64,000 bases of DNA from Desulfobacula sp. (GTDB lineage Bacteria > Desulfobacterota > Desulfobacteria > Desulfobacterales > Desulfobacteraceae), in NCBI RefSeq assembly GCF_030145145.1, contig NZ_JAQYWD010000035.1, forward strand, positions 1-64,000, written 5' to 3'. Below the pieces are notes generated by a model, which did not search any database, was not told the origin of the DNA, and worked only from the letters and a program-made list of their open reading frames with translations. This document shows, one piece after another, positions 1,511-29,789 of this stretch. Position 1 is the stretch's first letter, and each line of letters begins with the position of its first letter. The position numbers and the translations under genes were made by a program.

Positions 1511-3640
1511 CTAGTAAGATTCCACCGTGATGCATTCAGTCGACAGTTTTTCCTTGTTATAGATTATTCCTTCATTTGATTTACAATTGGACACCCTCTT
1601 GCCAGCCATAGTCGCAATCAAGTGTGCAGCTGCTGATTCCCACTCTTGAACAAAATCATTAACAGTATAAGAGTCTAGCCGGCCTTCTGCCACAAAACAC
1701 ATGGATAATGCACGGCTTTGTGGGATCAACACATTTTGTTCAATTTGACCTGTATGACTGTCTTTTGAATCCAAAGTTGCCGTTATGCCTAATCGTTGAG
1801 GCCGGTCATCACCTTCAATTTTAAAAACGCCTTGCCCAGCCCGCGCGTAATAGACGATATTCTTTAGTGGTACGTAAACAACACCATAAAGCGGGGCACC
1901 ATCCTGTATAAGTGCGATGTTGATGGTAAATTCTCCATCTCCATCAAGAAAAGCTTTTGCTCCATCAAGTGGGGAAACTATCCATACATGATTCCATTTG
2001 ACTCTTTCTGAGTAAGGTGCACAGTCATTTTCAGGGGAGATTATGGGTATTTGTGAATTCAAGTTTTTCAAACCTTCAACCAAAGCCTTTTGGGTTGTGT
2101 CGGATGCTCGCTGCAGCGCTAAAAGATCTCCACCACGAATCCAGTGCAAAGTCTTTGCGAGCCAGCCAGTCGCTTGTTTCTGATGGTAAACTTGTAATGA
2201 AATTTTTCCTGCCCTTTTGGCTACCGCAATAAGGTCATCGACATTCATCCAGGTAATTTGGGTAACATTTGCTTTTGGAAAGGGAATTGGTGGTGTCGGC
2301 TTGCCAAGAAAAGAACACAATTTTTCCCAGCCTTCTCCTTTAGAAATATCAATAACTAATAAATCATCCGGCCGATCTTTGAAATATTCAAGCGCGCCAT
2401 TAACAAAGCGCTTATATCCTACTTGAAATTTTTCCTCATCAAATACTGTGGTTCCATAGAGATCGGTGAAAAGCTGACTGTGCGCTTCATTTTGTTTTGA
2501 CGCGAACTTCTCATTAAACTGTTTTTTACAGGATCTAAGCCAGCCGTCCATATCTCTTATTGTTAAAACAAACTTAGAATCCGGATACTTTATATCGAGT
2601 TCTCTATAAAAGCTGGGAATTGGTGTATCTGTAAAGGCATTATTATTATTAATAATAGAAAGATCTACCGAAGAAAGATCCCCCTGAGCATAATGTGCTA
2701 CGCCAATACAGTCTATAACTTCATAATCAAGCATTTCCAACGCACGAGCCAAACTTGTCGTGCCTGTTTTTGAAAGACCTATCCCAAAAACTTTTGACTG
2801 AGTTAAATGATTTTTTTTTTTTTTATTCGCATCTGAAACTTTTGAATCAATTGGCACATAGCCTACCTGTGACAGTATAGAAGGATTTAAAAAATGATTG
2901 ATTATTTTGATATCTTCATCCGATAGCTGTTCTCGCCAACGCTGTTTTAAATAATAATCACGATAATAATTAAAATCTTTTTTCCCAACATCACTTTTCT
3001 TTGCTGATTCATTTAAAATATAAAATTCATCAGATTTTTTTTCAATATATCTTGAAACATTAGACAGAAATTTTTTAGGATCATCAATAACATCTTCATA
3101 TCTTGCACAAATTACAGAATAGCTTTTTGCTAGCTGAATATATCCATCAGTTTTTAGATTCCAAAGTTCAATAGGACTTTCAAGAATTGAAGGGCAATTA
3201 TCCCTCTCCGTAGTAAGCCATGGTTCAGAAACAAAGCTAGCTAAATCAATATTTTTCTGCAAACACAAATTATCATATGGCCTATTAAACATTGACAAAG
3301 CCCATGCATATGGGTTTTTTGTCAGCGTAACAAAAAGAATCTGTGCATTATCTGGACGTGCACCGATAACTTCTAAAGGTGGCACACAATGTTTCCATCC
3401 AAGAGTTTTCCATAGGTTACCGCAAAAATACTCATCGATTTTTATACTACTAGCCAATTTTCTTTTACAATTATCTGAAATAGTAGATTTAAGTTTTGCT
3501 TCGATTCTATCTCGATATCCAGGTTCTGCATCGGCTAAAGTGCCTGGTAATATTTCACATAAAAAATTATTTCGTATAAGCCTTGTGACAAACTGTGTAC
3601 CACTATTTCGTTCTCCATAAATCTTGACTAATTTCAACAA
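1511..3640 (-). CDS. Double sulfotransferase fused to a CysQ-like (PAP phosphatase) domain
   Basis: A 709-residue three-part protein. Residues 1-270 begin with a PAPS-binding P-loop (GERNSGTQF) and carry a 3'-phosphate loop (TKNPYAW), as in carbohydrate sulfotransferases. Residues about 283-450 form a second sulfotransferase unit starting KVFGIGLSKTGTTS. Residues about 465-709 resemble CysQ/inositol monophosphatases, which hydrolyse PAP, the by-product of sulfotransfer. In that domain the metal-binding DPLDGT motif reads SPLDGA (near residue 555), the EE pair reads PE, and the late WD reads WE, so catalysis by the phosphatase part is doubtful. An A14 homopolymer encodes the lysine linker between the two sulfotransferase units. 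It lies at the end of the EPS locus and suggests a sulfated polymer. Domain calls are from motif recognition. Confidence 0.8.
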   Translation of the reverse strand: MLKLVKIYGERNSGTQFVTRLIRNNFLCEILPGTLADAEPGYRDRIEAKLKSTISDNCKRKLASSIKIDEYFCGNLWKTLGWKHCVPPLEVIGARPDNAQILFVTLTKNPYAWALSMFNRPYDNLCLQKNIDLASFVSEPWLTTERDNCPSILESPIELWNLKTDGYIQLAKSYSVICARYEDVIDDPKKFLSNVSRYIEKKSDEFYILNESAKKSDVGKKDFNYYRDYYLKQRWREQLSDEDIKIINHFLNPSILSQVGYVPIDSKVSDANKKKKNHLTQSKVFGIGLSKTGTTSLARALEMLDYEVIDCIGVAHYAQGDLSSVDLSIINNNNAFTDTPIPSFYRELDIKYPDSKFVLTIRDMDGWLRSCKKQFNEKFASKQNEAHSQLFTDLYGTTVFDEEKFQVGYKRFVNGALEYFKDRPDDLLVIDISKGEGWEKLCSFLGKPTPPIPFPKANVTQITWMNVDDLIAVAKRAGKISLQVYHQKQATGWLAKTLHWIRGGDLLALQRASDTTQKALVEGLKNLNSQIPIISPENDCAPYSERVKWNHVWIVSPLDGAKAFLDGDGEFTINIALIQDGAPLYGVVYVPLKNIVYYARAGQGVFKIEGDDRPQRLGITATLDSKDSHTGQIEQNVLIPQSRALSMCFVAEGRLDSYTVNDFVQEWESAAAHLIATMAGKRVSNCKSNEGIIYNKEKLSTECITVESY
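2811..2824 (-). repeat. A14 homopolymer inside a coding region
   Basis: Fourteen consecutive A residues on the coding strand encode the Lys-rich linker (about residues 273-277) between the two sulfotransferase domains. Such tracts are slippage-prone during replication and transcription, and are also a common site of assembly error. Confidence 0.9.
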
Positions 3641-3814: not shown

Positions 3815-5275
3815 CTAAAGTTTTAAAATTTTTCGAACCCGCTGCACCTCAGAATTAAGCGATTGAATTGGAACAAAAAGGAAAGCTAAAACATATGTTA
3901 ATGCTCCAATAATGGCCATTATCAAAAGATATAGAATAGGATACGCATTTTGTATATCGCCCAAAGAAAAATCAACCAAACCGAGTATTAAAAAAAGTAT
4001 TGAACCTAAAAGTATCCCTGGTAAAATAGCCTTAAGCAGGTCAGCGATTCTTGTATGTATTGTTTTATTTACGATGGAATAGAGCATAATTACGGCTAAG
4101 GCATAACTTACTACAATACCTATTGATGCGCCGCTAAGACCCCAGTTCAATCCAATCAGGCATGCAACAATGGTAATTAACAATCTCAATATGGACACTA
4201 TAATTTCCTGTGTAAGTTTATTCTGTGCATTGATAAGAACGCCAAAGGGATAAAGAAAGTTAAAGAAGAAACCAGAAAAAACTAATATGCGTATCGGTTC
4301 AACAGAGGGGCGCCAGTTTTCTCCATAAAGAGTAACAATAAACGTTTCTGCTACCCACCATAGGGAGACATATAGAGGGATCGTCATGACAAAGAGAAGC
4401 GTTATCGATCGATATAACAAATATTTTGTTTTATCAAGGTCATCTTGTATCTTTGCCATTGCCCGGAAAACAGGTTGCATCAGTGAAGGCATAATTAAAT
4501 TGTTTGGAAGCTTTGCTTGACTCTCCGCTTTATTAAATAATCCTACAAATGCAGTTCCTGCCACTTTGCTAATAATCAAAGTTTTACCTTCTCTGGATAA
4601 ATAAGCAAGAATATCTATAGCAGTTATTTTGAAACCAAACCCAACATGCTTCTTCATAATCGTTTTATTTGTGGTCAATTTGAACCGGATTGGCACAATC
4701 ATTCCAGCTAGTATGTTGTTAAATAGCGATCCGAATAAACTTGACAAGACAAGACTCCAAACCCCCATTCCATACCAAGCCATTAAAATGCTTAGAACTC
4801 CCGTCACTAAAGCAGTAATAAAATTTACTACTGAACGTTTTCCAAATTCCATTTCTCTGTTTAGCCAGGCCATACGCATATATGAGTGTGGTTTTAGTAA
4901 AAAGCTTAGGGTAGATACACGAATCAAATCAGTATAAATAGGGTTATTAAAAAAAATAGCAATAAATGGCGACAATATAAAAAAAACCACATACCAGAAA
5001 ACACAGATCAGGAGTTGCAAGGAAAACACGGCACAAAAATCTTTTTCATCTACTTCTTTAGCTCGAATAATTGACTGCCCCATCCCTCCACTCGTCACCA
5101 TACTTGCAAGACCGGTCAAAACAGAAACCGTTGCTATGATGCCAAATTCAGCGGGTAACAATAAGCGGGCTAGAATTATACCAAAGGCAAACTGTAAAAA
5201 CCGGTTACCCAGTGAGCCGAACAAAAGCCAAGCAAATCCTCTTCGAATAGATGTACCAACTGACATAGATGTCAT
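3815..5275 (-). CDS. Wzx-type polysaccharide flippase (MOP superfamily)
   Basis: A 486-residue protein made almost wholly of hydrophobic helices (about 12-14). The N-terminus has the run FAWLLFGSLGNRFLQF and then LARLLLPAEFGIIA, the signature of lipopolysaccharide/O-antigen flippases of the MATE-like MOP superfamily (WzxC-like). Its role would be to flip undecaprenyl-linked repeat units across the inner membrane for polymerisation. Its place in a cluster with a priming transferase, a chain-length protein and an export lipoprotein supports this. Normal length for the family. The stop lies about 175 bases before the sulfotransferase gene, so co-transcription is possible. No Wzy polymerase was recognised in the window. 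Confidence 0.85.
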   Translation of the reverse strand: MTSMSVGTSIRRGFAWLLFGSLGNRFLQFAFGIILARLLLPAEFGIIATVSVLTGLASMVTSGGMGQSIIRAKEVDEKDFCAVFSLQLLICVFWYVVFFILSPFIAIFFNNPIYTDLIRVSTLSFLLKPHSYMRMAWLNREMEFGKRSVVNFITALVTGVLSILMAWYGMGVWSLVLSSLFGSLFNNILAGMIVPIRFKLTTNKTIMKKHVGFGFKITAIDILAYLSREGKTLIISKVAGTAFVGLFNKAESQAKLPNNLIMPSLMQPVFRAMAKIQDDLDKTKYLLYRSITLLFVMTIPLYVSLWWVAETFIVTLYGENWRPSVEPIRILVFSGFFFNFLYPFGVLINAQNKLTQEIIVSILRLLITIVACLIGLNWGLSGASIGIVVSYALAVIMLYSIVNKTIHTRIADLLKAILPGILLGSILFLILGLVDFSLGDIQNAYPILYLLIMAIIGALTYVLAFLFVPIQSLNSEVQRVRKILKL

Positions 5276-5373
5276 CTTCCTAAAAAAAATATATTAAATT
5301 TAAAAACAAACGTTTCAAAAACAAAACTCATCCTTTTTCCATTTTTATTAGTCCTGATAAAGTGTTTGATTGA

Positions 5374-5907
5374 TTATTTATTTTGTTTTTTCTTTACTAA
5401 AGATAAACTATCATGAGCCTTTTTATTTTCTATTATTGATTGATTATAATCTCCAAGAATTAAATAGATCATGGAAAGATTCTGATGTACATTTGGCCTT
5501 AACATAAAGTATGGGCTGGTGTGACCAAGTATATATTTAAATTCCCGAATAGCAGTTCCAAGAATAAACCTTTTATTTTTTTCACTGACACCTTGCTGTT
5601 TTGCCCTACGGACAAAATTGAGACCTGATCAATAATGAAGGAGATGTATAAAATCTGGCCCAAAGCGTTTCCTCCATTTTTTAACTATTGGATGATTGCT
5701 GTGTTTAATATTCTGTCTAGCTACACAGAACTCGGGTAAATATTTTAACTCTTCTTTTGTGGTGGCGTATGACTGCTTTTGTTCAGCAGATAGTATTGGA
5801 ATATTTAATAAAAAAAATAGCGCAACATATAACAAAATAGCAATTTTATAATATCCAATACACACGTGATTAGCTGATATTTCTTTTTTAAGATTAGTTT
5901 TTACCAT
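5374..5907 (-). CDS. Small exported TPR-like protein with in-frame TGA (possible selenocysteine or nonsense mutation)
   Basis: Reading from ATG at 5907, 92 codons lead to TGA at 5629-5631. The same frame then stays open for 84 more codons to TAA at 5374-5376, giving 177 residues if TGA is read. The N-terminus is a signal peptide or membrane anchor (IAILLYVALFFLLNIPILSA). The sequence around the TGA reads FIHLLHY-(TGA)-SGLNF. Related small TPR proteins of polysaccharide loci, as I recall them, have HHYC-x-GLN, so TGA stands where Cys is expected. The second half ends in a TPR-like stretch with LGDYNQSI. A hairpin with the geometry of a bacterial SECIS follows the TGA. The neighbouring acyltransferase gene is decayed, so a plain nonsense mutation is a real alternative. 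Confidence 0.6.
5599..5617 (-). other. SECIS-like hairpin just after the in-frame TGA
   Basis: On the minus strand TTTTGTCC pairs with GGGCAAAA (eight pairs, one of them G-U) around a three-base loop GTA. The loop starts 19 bases after the TGA. Bacterial SECIS elements usually have a small apical loop 16-37 bases after UGA with G in its first two positions. This one fits. Confidence 0.45.
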
Positions 5908-5930
5908 ATTTTTTTCTTGTGTATTATGTG

Positions 5931-6292
5931 TTAACCAACAAATTTCCTTGTACTATTGTATTTTGACATCAACTGAACAGTCAAAATTGAAAATATTAGG
6001 ACAAGTGCTATATAGCCTATTTCCCATAATGGAGTTATTAATATTTTTCAAGCAATCTGAAGTTATTTACGAAGAGCATATGAACTGCGTAAATACCTAA
6101 AGTATATTTACCCATATTGGTTAATTGCTCGACTCTAAAAAGCGGGTGGTTTGACAAAGCGAGAACTGCAGCACCTAACCCCATGAAATATGTTCCTATT
6201 CCATGGCAAGTATGTGGCCAAATATGAAAATATTGAGATAGTAATGAAGCAATGGACACCAAGCAAGACATCTTTTGTCTCTTGAAAGGCAT
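5931..6292 (-). pseudogene. Remnant of an acyltransferase family 3 gene
   Basis: The frame 6038-6292 gives the C-terminal part of an acyltransferase-3 membrane protein (HGIGTYFMGLGA, then GKYTLGIYAVHMLFV). It stops after LLEKY at an A5 run. Shifting one base at that run restores a frame reading ILITPLWEIGYIALVLIF and ending in LMSKYNSTRKFVG at TAA 5931-5933, which is what family members continue with. The N-terminal two thirds are missing upstream. I therefore read it as a truncated and frameshifted relic, with no functional product expected. Confidence 0.7.
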
Positions 6293-6359
6293 TCTTTAAT
6301 AATATGATAAATTAAAAAAATTCATGTAGATAGGAAAACTCTTCTTCGTTTTTAAGCGG

Positions 6360-11678: not shown

Positions 11679-11981
11679 TCAGATCCTGTTACTTTTTCTT
11701 TTAATCCAATATTGTGGTTTCCGATACCCATGAGCAATCGCAAGTATCCAGATTGCATCATCCTTTATGGTGTAAGCTATGTAATATGGAAACACTTTTA
11801 GATTTACTTTTCGATAACCATTGGATTGTATTTTTGGAACATTTGAGTTGTGGGAAATCCATCTCACATAGTGGTCGACTTCTTCCTTCAGTTTCAGGCC
11901 TAATCCATTCTGCTGTTCTTCATAGTATTCTATAGCATCATTCAATTCGTCAAATGCCTGCTGAAGTATTATCACTTTCAT
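11679..11981 (-). CDS. RelE/ParE-family toxin
   Basis: A 100-residue basic protein (FDELNDAIEYYEEQQNGLG near the N-terminus, then VFPYYIAYTIKDDAIWILAIAHGYRKP). It matches the ParE/RelE fold of type II toxins: two N-terminal helices and a C-terminal sheet with the usual AHxxR-P ending. ParE toxins act on gyrase and RelE toxins cut mRNA on the ribosome; which one applies here cannot be told. The ATG overlaps the TGA of the antitoxin gene (ATGA), the usual coupling of such pairs. The pair sits between two EPS genes transcribed the same way, so it looks like an insertion. Confidence 0.85.
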   Translation of the reverse strand: MKVIILQQAFDELNDAIEYYEEQQNGLGLKLKEEVDHYVRWISHNSNVPKIQSNGYRKVNLKVFPYYIAYTIKDDAIWILAIAHGYRKPQYWIKRKSNRI

Positions 11982-12217
11982 CTTTCAAATCGTTTTTCAA
12001 TTTCTTTCAACGCTTTGTTAAAGTCAATACCTACCGCTGTTCCTTTATCAACAGCAGACATTCTATTTATGATTTCATTTTCCCAAACTGATTCAATATC
12101 AGTATCTAAAGATCGATTATCTAAAAATAAAATAAATCTTGCTATTTCCAATCGTTCCTTTTTGGACAAACTGATTAAATTTTTAGTTATCTCTTCAATG
12201 TTAGATTGGACTATCAT
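11978..12217 (-). CDS. Antitoxin of the ParE/RelE pair (addiction module component family)
   Basis: A 79-residue acidic protein with an N-terminal helical part (ITKNLISLSKKERLEIARF) and an ending ALKEIEKRFER. This is the pattern of the addiction-module antitoxins that precede ParE/RelE toxins. It should neutralise the downstream toxin and repress the pair. A strong ribosome-binding site (AGGTGAT) lies just before the ATG. The promoter upstream overlaps an inverted repeat that could be its operator. Confidence 0.8.
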   Translation of the reverse strand: MIVQSNIEEITKNLISLSKKERLEIARFILFLDNRSLDTDIESVWENEIINRMSAVDKGTAVGIDFNKALKEIEKRFER

Positions 12218-27309: not shown

Positions 27310-27431
27310 GTTTAGTATTTGCTTCGAATATTTTTATATGTTAAAAAATTCACTATTTGGATAACCACTGGAAAAAATTAACGACAGGTCGTTGATATCA
27401 AATTTAACAAATAAATTATAATGGATACTAT

Positions 27432-29789
27432 ATGAAAAATAAATGCCTCACATCAAACCCTTTGTTTCTTATACCTTTTTGTTATCTTTTCTTTCTAATT
27501 TTTTCCTGTTCCACTCCCCATGATGACACCATCAGTCATTTGGAAAGCGCTAAAAAATATTTTGCAGCAAACGAATTTGAAAAGGCCAAAATAGAATTCC
27601 AAAATGCGATTCAGTTGGATCCAAAAAATGACGCAGCTCATTTTGATTTAGGAGAAACCTATGTTCATCTTCAGGATCCTGTTAAAGCTGCTACAGCTTT
27701 TTCCCAGGCAATTGCCGTGAATCCGGATAATTTAAAGGCACAACTGCGCCTGGGGCAAATTCTATTACTGGCAAAAGAAACAAAACAGGCAAGGGATGCC
27801 GTGAATAAAATTCTGCAGAAACACCCGGACAACGTTGAAGCCATGCACCTTTTGTCAAGCATCCAGATCCAGGAAAGAAATCTGCCCCTGGCCTTAAAAA
27901 CCCTGAAAAAAGCTATTGCCATGGCACCTTCAGACCCAAGGACCACCCTTTTCCTGGCCCATTTGCTTTATACCACGAACCGGCTGGATGAAGCGGAGCC
28001 TTACTACCTTAAAACCATTGAACTGGATAAAACACTTCGAGCCCCTTACATGGAACTGGCACTTCTTTACAAAAGAAAAGGTGACATAGACAAAATAGAA
28101 CCCCTGATAAACCAGTGGGTAAAGGTTCCAGGGGATCAGGTACAGAAAAGCCAGGATCTTGCCCGTTTTCAGGAAAGCCAGGGTCGGATTGAGCAGGCCG
28201 AAAGAACATATCTTGAAGCCTCGATCAATGCGCCTGAAGATCCCAATGCCCTTGTTAATCTGGCCTCTTTTTATGGCCGACAGAAAAAAAATGATCAAGC
28301 GTTGGAAATCTTTATGCGGGCCTTGGCCTTAGATAAAAAAAATCTGGATGTCCAAGCCTCTATTGCCACTCTGTTTTTTGTACAAAAAAAATACAAGGAA
28401 ACCGAGTCAGCTGTGGATGCTATTCTGGACAAAAATGACCAGCACGAACAGGCTAATTTCCTTAAAGGACGCTTGTATTTTAACAAAAAAGACTTTCCTG
28501 CTGCGTTGAAATATTTTGAAATTGTCATTGGCCAAGCTCCCAATCATGCCAGGGCCAGATATTTTAAGGCGCGTTGCCTTTTGGACAAAGGGCAGTCAGA
28601 TCTTCCCGGCCAGGATCTTTTCAGGGTGGCTGCCGGTTATATGACGGCGGAATCCTGGGAACAAAAATTGGCAAAAGATGAACTGGTACGGGCAGTGGAA
28701 ATTGATCCCGGGTTTATCAATGCCCGGCTTTTACTAATTGACAGCTATCTTCAAGATAAAGATATTAAATTAGCCCGTCATCATATTGCAACTGTCCTTC
28801 AAAAGGAGCCGCAAAAATTACAGGCATTGATCCTTGCAGGACGATTAAAACTTTTGGAAGATGACCTTGCCGGTGCTGAGAAAATCTATCTGGCCATCCT
28901 TGACCGACATCCTGATTTTGCTTCAGGTTATGTCTCCCTGGGGCTTGCCCGTCATGGCATGAAAAAAAATAAGGCGGCATTGGATGCTTTTGATAAGGCC
29001 CTTGAAATCAATCCCAATCAGATGGATGCTTTAAACTATAAGGTCAGCCTTTATATGCAGGAAAAGGATGTTGCGAATGCCCTGGACGTATGCGAGAAAC
29101 ATCGACAAAATTTCACACCAACAGCGCCATCTCTTGCCATCATTGACCTCATCCAGGGAAAAGTATTTATGACTACAGGGCAGATAGAAGCTGCAAGAGA
29201 GCTTTTTGAAAAAGCCATTGAACGGGTACCAACGCTTTCAGCCCCCTATGAAGAACTTGGCAGTATTTATGAGCATCAAAAAGATATTCCCCAGGCAATT
29301 GAAAACTATGAAAAATTATTACAATTGAATCCGGATTATCTTCCCACTTATTTGAGCCTGAGCCGTATTTACAAAAACCAGGGAGACCTGAAAAAAGCCC
29401 AAAAATATTTAAAGGATGCCCTGGCAATTAAGGATGATTTTGCTCCGGCCGCCAATAACCTGGCCTTTATGCTGGCTGAATCCAAATCCTCCCTGTATGA
29501 GGCGTTGCGGCTGGCCAAAATTGCCCGGGACAAAGATTCGAAGAATCCCGATTACCTGGATACCCTGGGGTGGATTTATTACCTTCAGGGCAACAATGAC
29601 CTGGCGTTACGGGAATTAGAGAACAGTATTGATATAAACCCGGATAATGCCCTAACCCATTACCATTTGGGGTGGGCTTATTATGATACCCAGAAATATG
29701 AAGCGGCCAGACAGCACATGGCAAAGGCCCTGGAACTTGATCCTGAATTTAAGGATGCGGATAAAGCACGGGATGTTTTAGGGGAATAG
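27432..29789 (+). CDS. prsT: PrsT-like TPR lipoprotein of the XrtA/PEP-CTERM system
   Basis: A 785-residue exported protein. The signal peptide ends with a lipobox (FLIFSCSTPHDD), so it is a lipoprotein. The rest is about 20 tetratricopeptide repeats, each near 34 residues, visible as repeated A-x-x-x-F-x-x-A-I-x-L-x-P units such as AKIEFQNAIQLDPKNDAA and ALRELENSIDINPDNALTH. Proteins of this build accompany exosortase EPS loci and are thought to organise the periplasmic assembly or export machinery. It is transcribed away from the main operon and is slightly shorter than the usual 880-920 residues. Confidence 0.8.
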   Translation: MKNKCLTSNPLFLIPFCYLFFLIFSCSTPHDDTISHLESAKKYFAANEFEKAKIEFQNAIQLDPKNDAAHFDLGETYVHLQDPVKAATAFSQAIAVNPDNLKAQLRLGQILLLAKETKQARDAVNKILQKHPDNVEAMHLLSSIQIQERNLPLALKTLKKAIAMAPSDPRTTLFLAHLLYTTNRLDEAEPYYLKTIELDKTLRAPYMELALLYKRKGDIDKIEPLINQWVKVPGDQVQKSQDLARFQESQGRIEQAERTYLEASINAPEDPNALVNLASFYGRQKKNDQALEIFMRALALDKKNLDVQASIATLFFVQKKYKETESAVDAILDKNDQHEQANFLKGRLYFNKKDFPAALKYFEIVIGQAPNHARARYFKARCLLDKGQSDLPGQDLFRVAAGYMTAESWEQKLAKDELVRAVEIDPGFINARLLLIDSYLQDKDIKLARHHIATVLQKEPQKLQALILAGRLKLLEDDLAGAEKIYLAILDRHPDFASGYVSLGLARHGMKKNKAALDAFDKALEINPNQMDALNYKVSLYMQEKDVANALDVCEKHRQNFTPTAPSLAIIDLIQGKVFMTTGQIEAARELFEKAIERVPTLSAPYEELGSIYEHQKDIPQAIENYEKLLQLNPDYLPTYLSLSRIYKNQGDLKKAQKYLKDALAIKDDFAPAANNLAFMLAESKSSLYEALRLAKIARDKDSKNPDYLDTLGWIYYLQGNNDLALRELENSIDINPDNALTHYHLGWAYYDTQKYEAARQHMAKALELDPEFKDADKARDVLGE

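Follow-up and report, generated by a model that had tools for sequence, protein, structure and literature searches.

The catalogue of prokaryotic selenoproteins in PMC13188914 lists, in its Table 1, 119 families and subfamilies. As described there, a UGA codon occupies a column that holds cysteine in homologues, a bSECIS-like hairpin follows it and the host carries the full selenocysteine (Sec) machinery; these features are shared by the gene reported here, which lies in a stretch of 64,000 nt of Desulfobacula sp. (GCF_030145145.1, contig NZ_JAQYWD010000035.1, positions 1-64,000), hereafter the window. The bSECIS model of the same paper has a stem of 4-16 bp, a loop of 3-9 nt with a G within the first two loop positions, a UGA-to-loop distance of 16-37 nt and a minimum free energy <= -7.5 kcal/mol (PMC13188914), a limit for which the section on the model states no segment length. 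In contrast to the family described here, none of those in Table 1 has an HHYU motif, a TPR or a relation to polysaccharides, and the terms "tetratricopeptide", "polysaccharide", "glycosyl" and "TPR" do not occur in the main text of that paper. No catalogued family is thus placed there in an exopolysaccharide setting, in line with the original prediction that a selenoprotein in such a locus would be new.

Sulfate-reducing relatives are also the source of the deep-Sep hypothetical selenoproteins DG, DW and DF, which have no known domain (PMC12013277). Compared by the motifs described for them, DG (GUxG) and DW (GxU) do not fit the HYUxG of the window protein. DF, whose description in PMC12013277 comes with no motif, is tentatively set apart solely by an NCBIfam search, in which no family matched the window protein or its Desulfospira homologue at E <= 1; the model set includes accession numbers later than those of DG, DW and DF. 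A further system for comparison is PrsT (TIGR02917), which has in common with the present family the TPR-like C-terminal helices, clearest in the Cys homologues, and the exopolysaccharide locus. The window protein is, however, much shorter than PrsT and contains a PxxC...HHYC/U part for which no Pfam or NCBIfam model scores above cut-off. Among the papers listed by literature searches we found no report of the HHYC/U family, as judged from titles and the openings of abstracts. Bacterial selenoproteins are a known kind, to which the gene probably adds a new family that stands out by its predicted fold and its setting. Such a family would be hidden from standard gene callers if, as is to be expected, they split the gene in two.

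The gene and the Sec machinery of its host

The features of the gene and of its decayed neighbour are the following:

5374-5907, (-): putative selenoprotein gene of 177 residues, ending in TAA, with Sec as the proposed reading of UGA93
5725-5727, (-): codon of Cys61 in the PxxC motif, invariant in the 14-row alignment and proposed partner of Sec93
5629-5631, (-): in-frame TGA, putative Sec codon 93 (HY-U-SGL), in a column with TGA in Desulfospira and Cys in 13 others
5599-5617, (-): bacterial SECIS-like hairpin of 8 bp with the loop GUA at 5609-5607, 19 nt after TGA
5377-5628, (-): post-TGA part, picked out by a profile built from Cys homologues only
6041-6295, (-): decayed neighbour, a fragment resembling Acyl_transf_3 (22.6 bits, Pfam cut-off 31)

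Translation of 5907-5374 contains a single in-frame TGA, at codon 93, and no second stop before TAA, which confirms the frame open on both sides of TGA and the 177-residue product that had been predicted. One of the Cys homologues (L071) has exactly this length. The TGA had been placed at the Cys of an HHYCxGLN motif, and relatives do show Cys there, within HHYC or, in one case, HHLC; the window itself reads LHY-TGA-SGLN. GC content by codon position is 0.40/0.27/0.24 before TGA and 0.40/0.28/0.22 after it, in a gene that is AT-rich as a whole (30% GC vs 42% in the surroundings).

The sel genes presupposed by the original prediction are all present in the host assembly (G000; 5.66 Mb, 89 contigs): selA (E 1.1e-159), selB (346.7 bits vs a cut-off of 242.25), tRNA-Sec (76.5 bits vs a gathering score of 47) and selD (366 bits vs a cut-off of 125). 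The selD match holds an in-frame TGA of its own, and the scan applied to the window gene finds behind it a hairpin of 8 bp with its loop 19 nt after TGA. UGA93 might instead be decoded independently of SelB, by suppression or as another amino acid, and Cys in the relatives implies that any frame-keeping insertion could be tolerated. We regard this as exceedingly improbable, since TGA is also an ordinary stop in the window, where it terminates six of 35 long ORFs (a selected set), and since no other route is needed where the sel genes are complete and a hairpin is in position.

A second TGA-bearing member and the Cys forms of the family

A search of 97 genomes around the host identified a homologue in Desulfospira joergensenii DSM 10085 (NZ_ATUG01000003.1), with 37% identity over 84 residues (49-132) and one TGA inside, at the same codon as in the window. 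The protein reads HIHHY-TGA-RGLTFLRRGK at this site and the frame is open behind TGA. This is the only further, diverged species in which the UGA is conserved; the strain has a name and is kept in a culture collection, which makes the claim directly testable. selA was found in its genome as well as in nine of the 13 genomes bearing Cys members, and was not found in the other four (G013 and three methanotrophs).

Further members were sought with trimmed profiles (A2, A3 and A7) in place of a full-length profile, because most of the matches listed for the latter, in 69 of 86 genomes, cover the TPR part alone. Counting the host genome each time, the trimmed profiles matched 8/86 genomes at the level of the family, one of them judged a chance match, the identical ten genomes at the levels of order and class (10/389 each) and 2/395 genomes at that of the phylum. 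The 15 members in hand comprise two with TGA (window and Desulfospira) and 13 with TGC or TGT (L004, L005, L006, L035, L036, L061 and L071-L077), and range from Desulfobacteraceae relatives to methanotrophs, L074-L077 being from Methylotuvimicrobium, two Methylomonas and one betaproteobacterium. The genus of the host alone contributes three members, one with TGA (window) and two with Cys (G013 and G020). Both Sec members come from one family of bacteria; in a tree of 15 rows they form one clade in 16% of 200 bootstrap replicates, which favours neither a single origin nor separate ones.

In an alignment of 14 rows, which leaves out L076 as a near copy of L075, both TGAs fall in the Cys column and the flanks are conserved on both sides; an alignment of homologues was among the checks that had been suggested. 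Invariant positions are, in window numbering, P58, C61, G83, H91 and C/Sec93. The part after TGA was identified from the Cys members alone: a profile built on 12 of them (Sec rows and L076 excluded) and covering the 80 residues that follow Cys finds, among 1380 stop-free pieces, the post-TGA piece of the window with E 5.8e-15 and that of Desulfospira with E 2.1e-7, and a longer version of this profile finds them with 1.5e-13 and 1.3e-6. One other match lies above the inclusion line, a TPR protein at 27408-29786.

Close relatives with TGC or TGT and no hairpin had been named in advance as evidence against a selenoprotein. Members with Cys and no comparable hairpin do make up 13 of the 15, but Desulfospira keeps both the TGA and a matching hairpin. 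Because this homologue has TGA, open frame and hairpin, the 13 Cys members are the expected Cys forms of a Sec/Cys family. Such a natural Sec/Cys pair marks a chemically important residue in a family that is otherwise uncharacterised.

The same evidence bears on the possibility that a Cys codon mutated to TGA and left a young pseudogene, encoding a fragment of 92 residues, in step with the decay of the neighbouring acyltransferase. A change from TGC or TGT to TGA needs one base, the gene is AT-rich, most members have Cys, and the Acyl_transf_3-like remnant that had suggested this origin is real and adjoins the gene. A nonsense mutation is nevertheless very unlikely: the gene contains no further stop, a young mutation would not bring along a hairpin that is missing from the Cys members, and the diverged Desulfospira gene combines TGA at this very codon with an open frame behind it and a hairpin of matching design. 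Given this homologue, and given that the post-TGA part matches a profile made from Cys members only, the window gene is very probably a real selenoprotein and no product of a nonsense mutation.

Several other matches were set aside. L007, L008 and L009, from a search matching eight genomes (own included), have no HHYC/U-like motif in any frame. L068 (G002, E 1.6e-4) lies between two genes and has two TGA and two TAG inside; we treated this stretch (L068:1501-1716) as a chance match, and a far-decayed copy is conceivable. A first scan of genome contigs returned 107 stretches and a scan of viral contigs 73, none of them confirmed; plasmids gave no match, and the best match to PHROGs had E 0.049. 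The betaproteobacterial member (L077:7911-8675) has a Pro/Ala-rich tail ending in YCRFCPD, a C-terminal CxxC that is absent from the other members in hand.

The hairpin downstream of TGA

The window hairpin, UUUUGUCC-GUA-GGGCAAAA, has eight pairs, one of them G-U. It had been described as an eight-pair hairpin with a GTA loop 19 bases after TGA; this distance holds for the loop and not for the stem, which starts 11 nt after TGA. Loop, stem and distance in the window (8 bp) and in Desulfospira (7 bp), both with GUA at exactly 19 nt, fall within the ranges of the bSECIS model (PMC13188914), so the geometry is indeed that described for bacterial SECIS elements. Folding energy is less clear-cut. 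The core stems, with -6.2 (window) and -5.2 kcal/mol (Desulfospira), are both weaker than the -7.5 limit. Longer window segments yield -6.8 (41 nt, again short of the limit), -8.6 (51 nt) and -12.9 kcal/mol (70 nt), the last two passing it, as do both Desulfospira folds (-8.6 and -9.9 kcal/mol). The z-scores of folding are -0.70, -0.38 and -2.11 for the window segments of 41, 51 and 70 nt, and 0.30 and 0.05 for Desulfospira.

We also asked how often hairpins of this kind occur. With the window hairpin as yardstick, an equally stable bSECIS-type hairpin follows 3.2% of the 2793 TGA triplets of the window; with that of Desulfospira, 4.9%. In the window, 32 TGAs are preceded by 60 or more open codons and followed by 40 or more; two of these, the present one included, have a hairpin at -5.0 kcal/mol or better, and the second is antisense to an ORF of 1161 aa. 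Synonymous recoding reached equal energy in 227 of 20,000 draws for the window and 927 of 20,000 for Desulfospira; when distance and a GU loop had to agree as well, the counts were 31 and 59 of 20,000. An Rfam search of window positions 5300-6000 returned three matches (E 3.5-9.6), with no bacterial SECIS among them. The window hairpin on its own is modest evidence, and the plain fold energy of the short segment is unremarkable.

Comparison between the two genes adds the following: (i) seven of the eight stem pairs of the window are kept in Desulfospira, where the outermost pair is lost, and the sole difference within the kept pairs is a compensating G-C to C-G double change that alters two residues (Val/Leu and Ala/Gly); (ii) codons 97-103, which hold the hairpin, are identical at 17 of 21 nt vs 150 of 354 in the rest of the gene, and codons 98-103 at 16 of 18 nt vs 151 of 357 elsewhere (Fisher p = 1e-4); (iii) the two genes use identical codons for the two Arg residues of the hairpin, while outside it six of the seven shared Leu/Arg/Ser codons differ and 17 of 33 codons for all shared residues are identical; and (iv) the window-type hairpin is absent from all 13 Cys members, three of which have a weaker hairpin elsewhere (the best with -3.4 kcal/mol at 32 nt) and ten none. 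The case for Sec is strong because one TGA and one hairpin design are repeated in two diverged genes. We hold with high confidence that UGA93 is translated as selenocysteine, a reading that draws on comparative sequence data; SelB with Sec-tRNA would decode the codon under the direction of the hairpin, which presents its GUA loop 19 nt after UGA.

Protein architecture

The window protein begins with a hydrophobic stretch, likely an export signal as judged by eye, followed by the PxxC...HHYC/U part and then by TPR-like helices. TPR_8 scores 13.3 bits in the window protein, below its cut-off of 25.7, and three Cys homologues (L005, L006 and L035) attain a TPR cut-off. An AlphaFold2 model made with six sequences contains helices only (mean pLDDT 83.8, pTM 0.71); in it, helix 73-103 includes residue 93 and helix 59-65 includes Cys61, the two residues being 32 positions apart in sequence. 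The search of the PDB by sequence gave no matches, and that by fold gave 701 at E <= 10 and none at <= 0.001, so that the top fold matches (the NASP TPR domain, 14-3-3 proteins and the TPR protein MamA) are not significant. The predicted fold is helical and TPR-like, not thioredoxin-like. The thioredoxin fold is a common one among selenoproteins.

The exopolysaccharide setting and a possible function

The neighbourhood of the gene includes:

1511-3640, (-): Sulfotransfer_4 (5.4e-32) and an inositol-monophosphatase-family domain (PF00459, 3.6e-24) in one ORF, two genes downstream
3815-5275, (-): neighbouring Wzx-type polysaccharide flippase (Polysacc_synt_3), which recurs beside the homologues L074 and L085
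27432-29789: PrsT-type TPR protein (TIGR02917), within the window

The window is an exosortase-type exopolysaccharide locus. An exosortase, an XrtA-type glycosylphosphotransferase and PrsT score above cut-offs (NCBIfam models TIGR02602, TIGR03013 and TIGR02917), and the matches for a tyrosine kinase and a chain-length protein fall just short of their own (TIGR03018 and TIGR03007). Together with the flippase, these genes give the surroundings the make-up of an XrtA/PEP-CTERM exopolysaccharide locus. By Pfam, nine of ten homologous loci have a polysaccharide-type direct neighbour, and in the tenth (L082) a radical-SAM neighbour alone was tested. These direct neighbours are Wzx (L074 and L085), ABC-2 transporters (L075 and L086), an O-antigen ligase (Wzy_C, L079), sulfotransferases (L074, L083 and L085), glycosyltransferases (L075, L080, L081 and L084) and a polysaccharide deacetylase (L083); in L084 the direct upstream glycosyltransferase-like ORF was recognised by eye, and a deacetylase-like ORF one gene further was not counted. 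The order sulfotransferase, HHYC gene, Wzx is shared by the locus of a methanotroph (L074) and that of G516 (L085). Around the Desulfospira gene we read, by eye only, glycosyltransferases and sulfotransferases.

Taken as a whole, the explanation that fits best is that the gene encodes the Sec form of a so far unnamed family of probably exported, TPR-like proteins, whose genes lie in exopolysaccharide clusters and often next to that for the exporter, and we consider it likely. The product would be exported and could serve as a helical periplasmic scaffold or assembly factor near the polysaccharide exporter; the gene neighbourhoods make it fairly likely that it takes part in the export or assembly of polysaccharide. 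Cys61 and Sec93 may form a pair engaged in redox or thiol chemistry, in which Sec would raise the reactivity of the site; that the two residues are a redox pair has, in our estimation, slightly less than an even chance. As to function, the chief alternative is that Sec93 (or Cys in its place), His91 and Cys61 bind a metal or haem; the protein would then carry metal or electrons in the cell envelope and would not be a thiol redox switch. His91 and Cys61 are invariant alongside Cys/Sec93 in the 14 rows, and Sec is a metal ligand in some known selenoproteins (PMC13188914); yet no metal-binding family matches, and the gene context is one of polysaccharide synthesis, which makes a metal or haem site rather unlikely. 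The fuller form of the redox reading, that of a founding Sec form of a helical non-thioredoxin family, exported and with Cys61/Sec93 redox chemistry on the exopolysaccharide machine, is tentative, and we would sooner doubt it than assume it. If true, it would link selenium supply and cell-surface polysaccharide in sulfate reducers.

Three minor observations concern the loci. In the ORF at 1511-3640 (-), the PF00459 part is perhaps a PAP phosphatase that would clear the by-product of the sulfotransferase within one chain. A radical-SAM gene of about 600 aa lies directly downstream of the HHYC gene in G055 (L081:5115-6908) and G114 (L082:5552-7354), where it may be a functional link to the Cys/Sec site. 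Lastly, the exopolysaccharide locus of the window contains a ParE-like ORF (PF05016, 32.4 bits, cut-off 23) together with a small overlapping upstream ORF (11679-11981 and 11978-12217, (-)), the latter a candidate antitoxin by position only.
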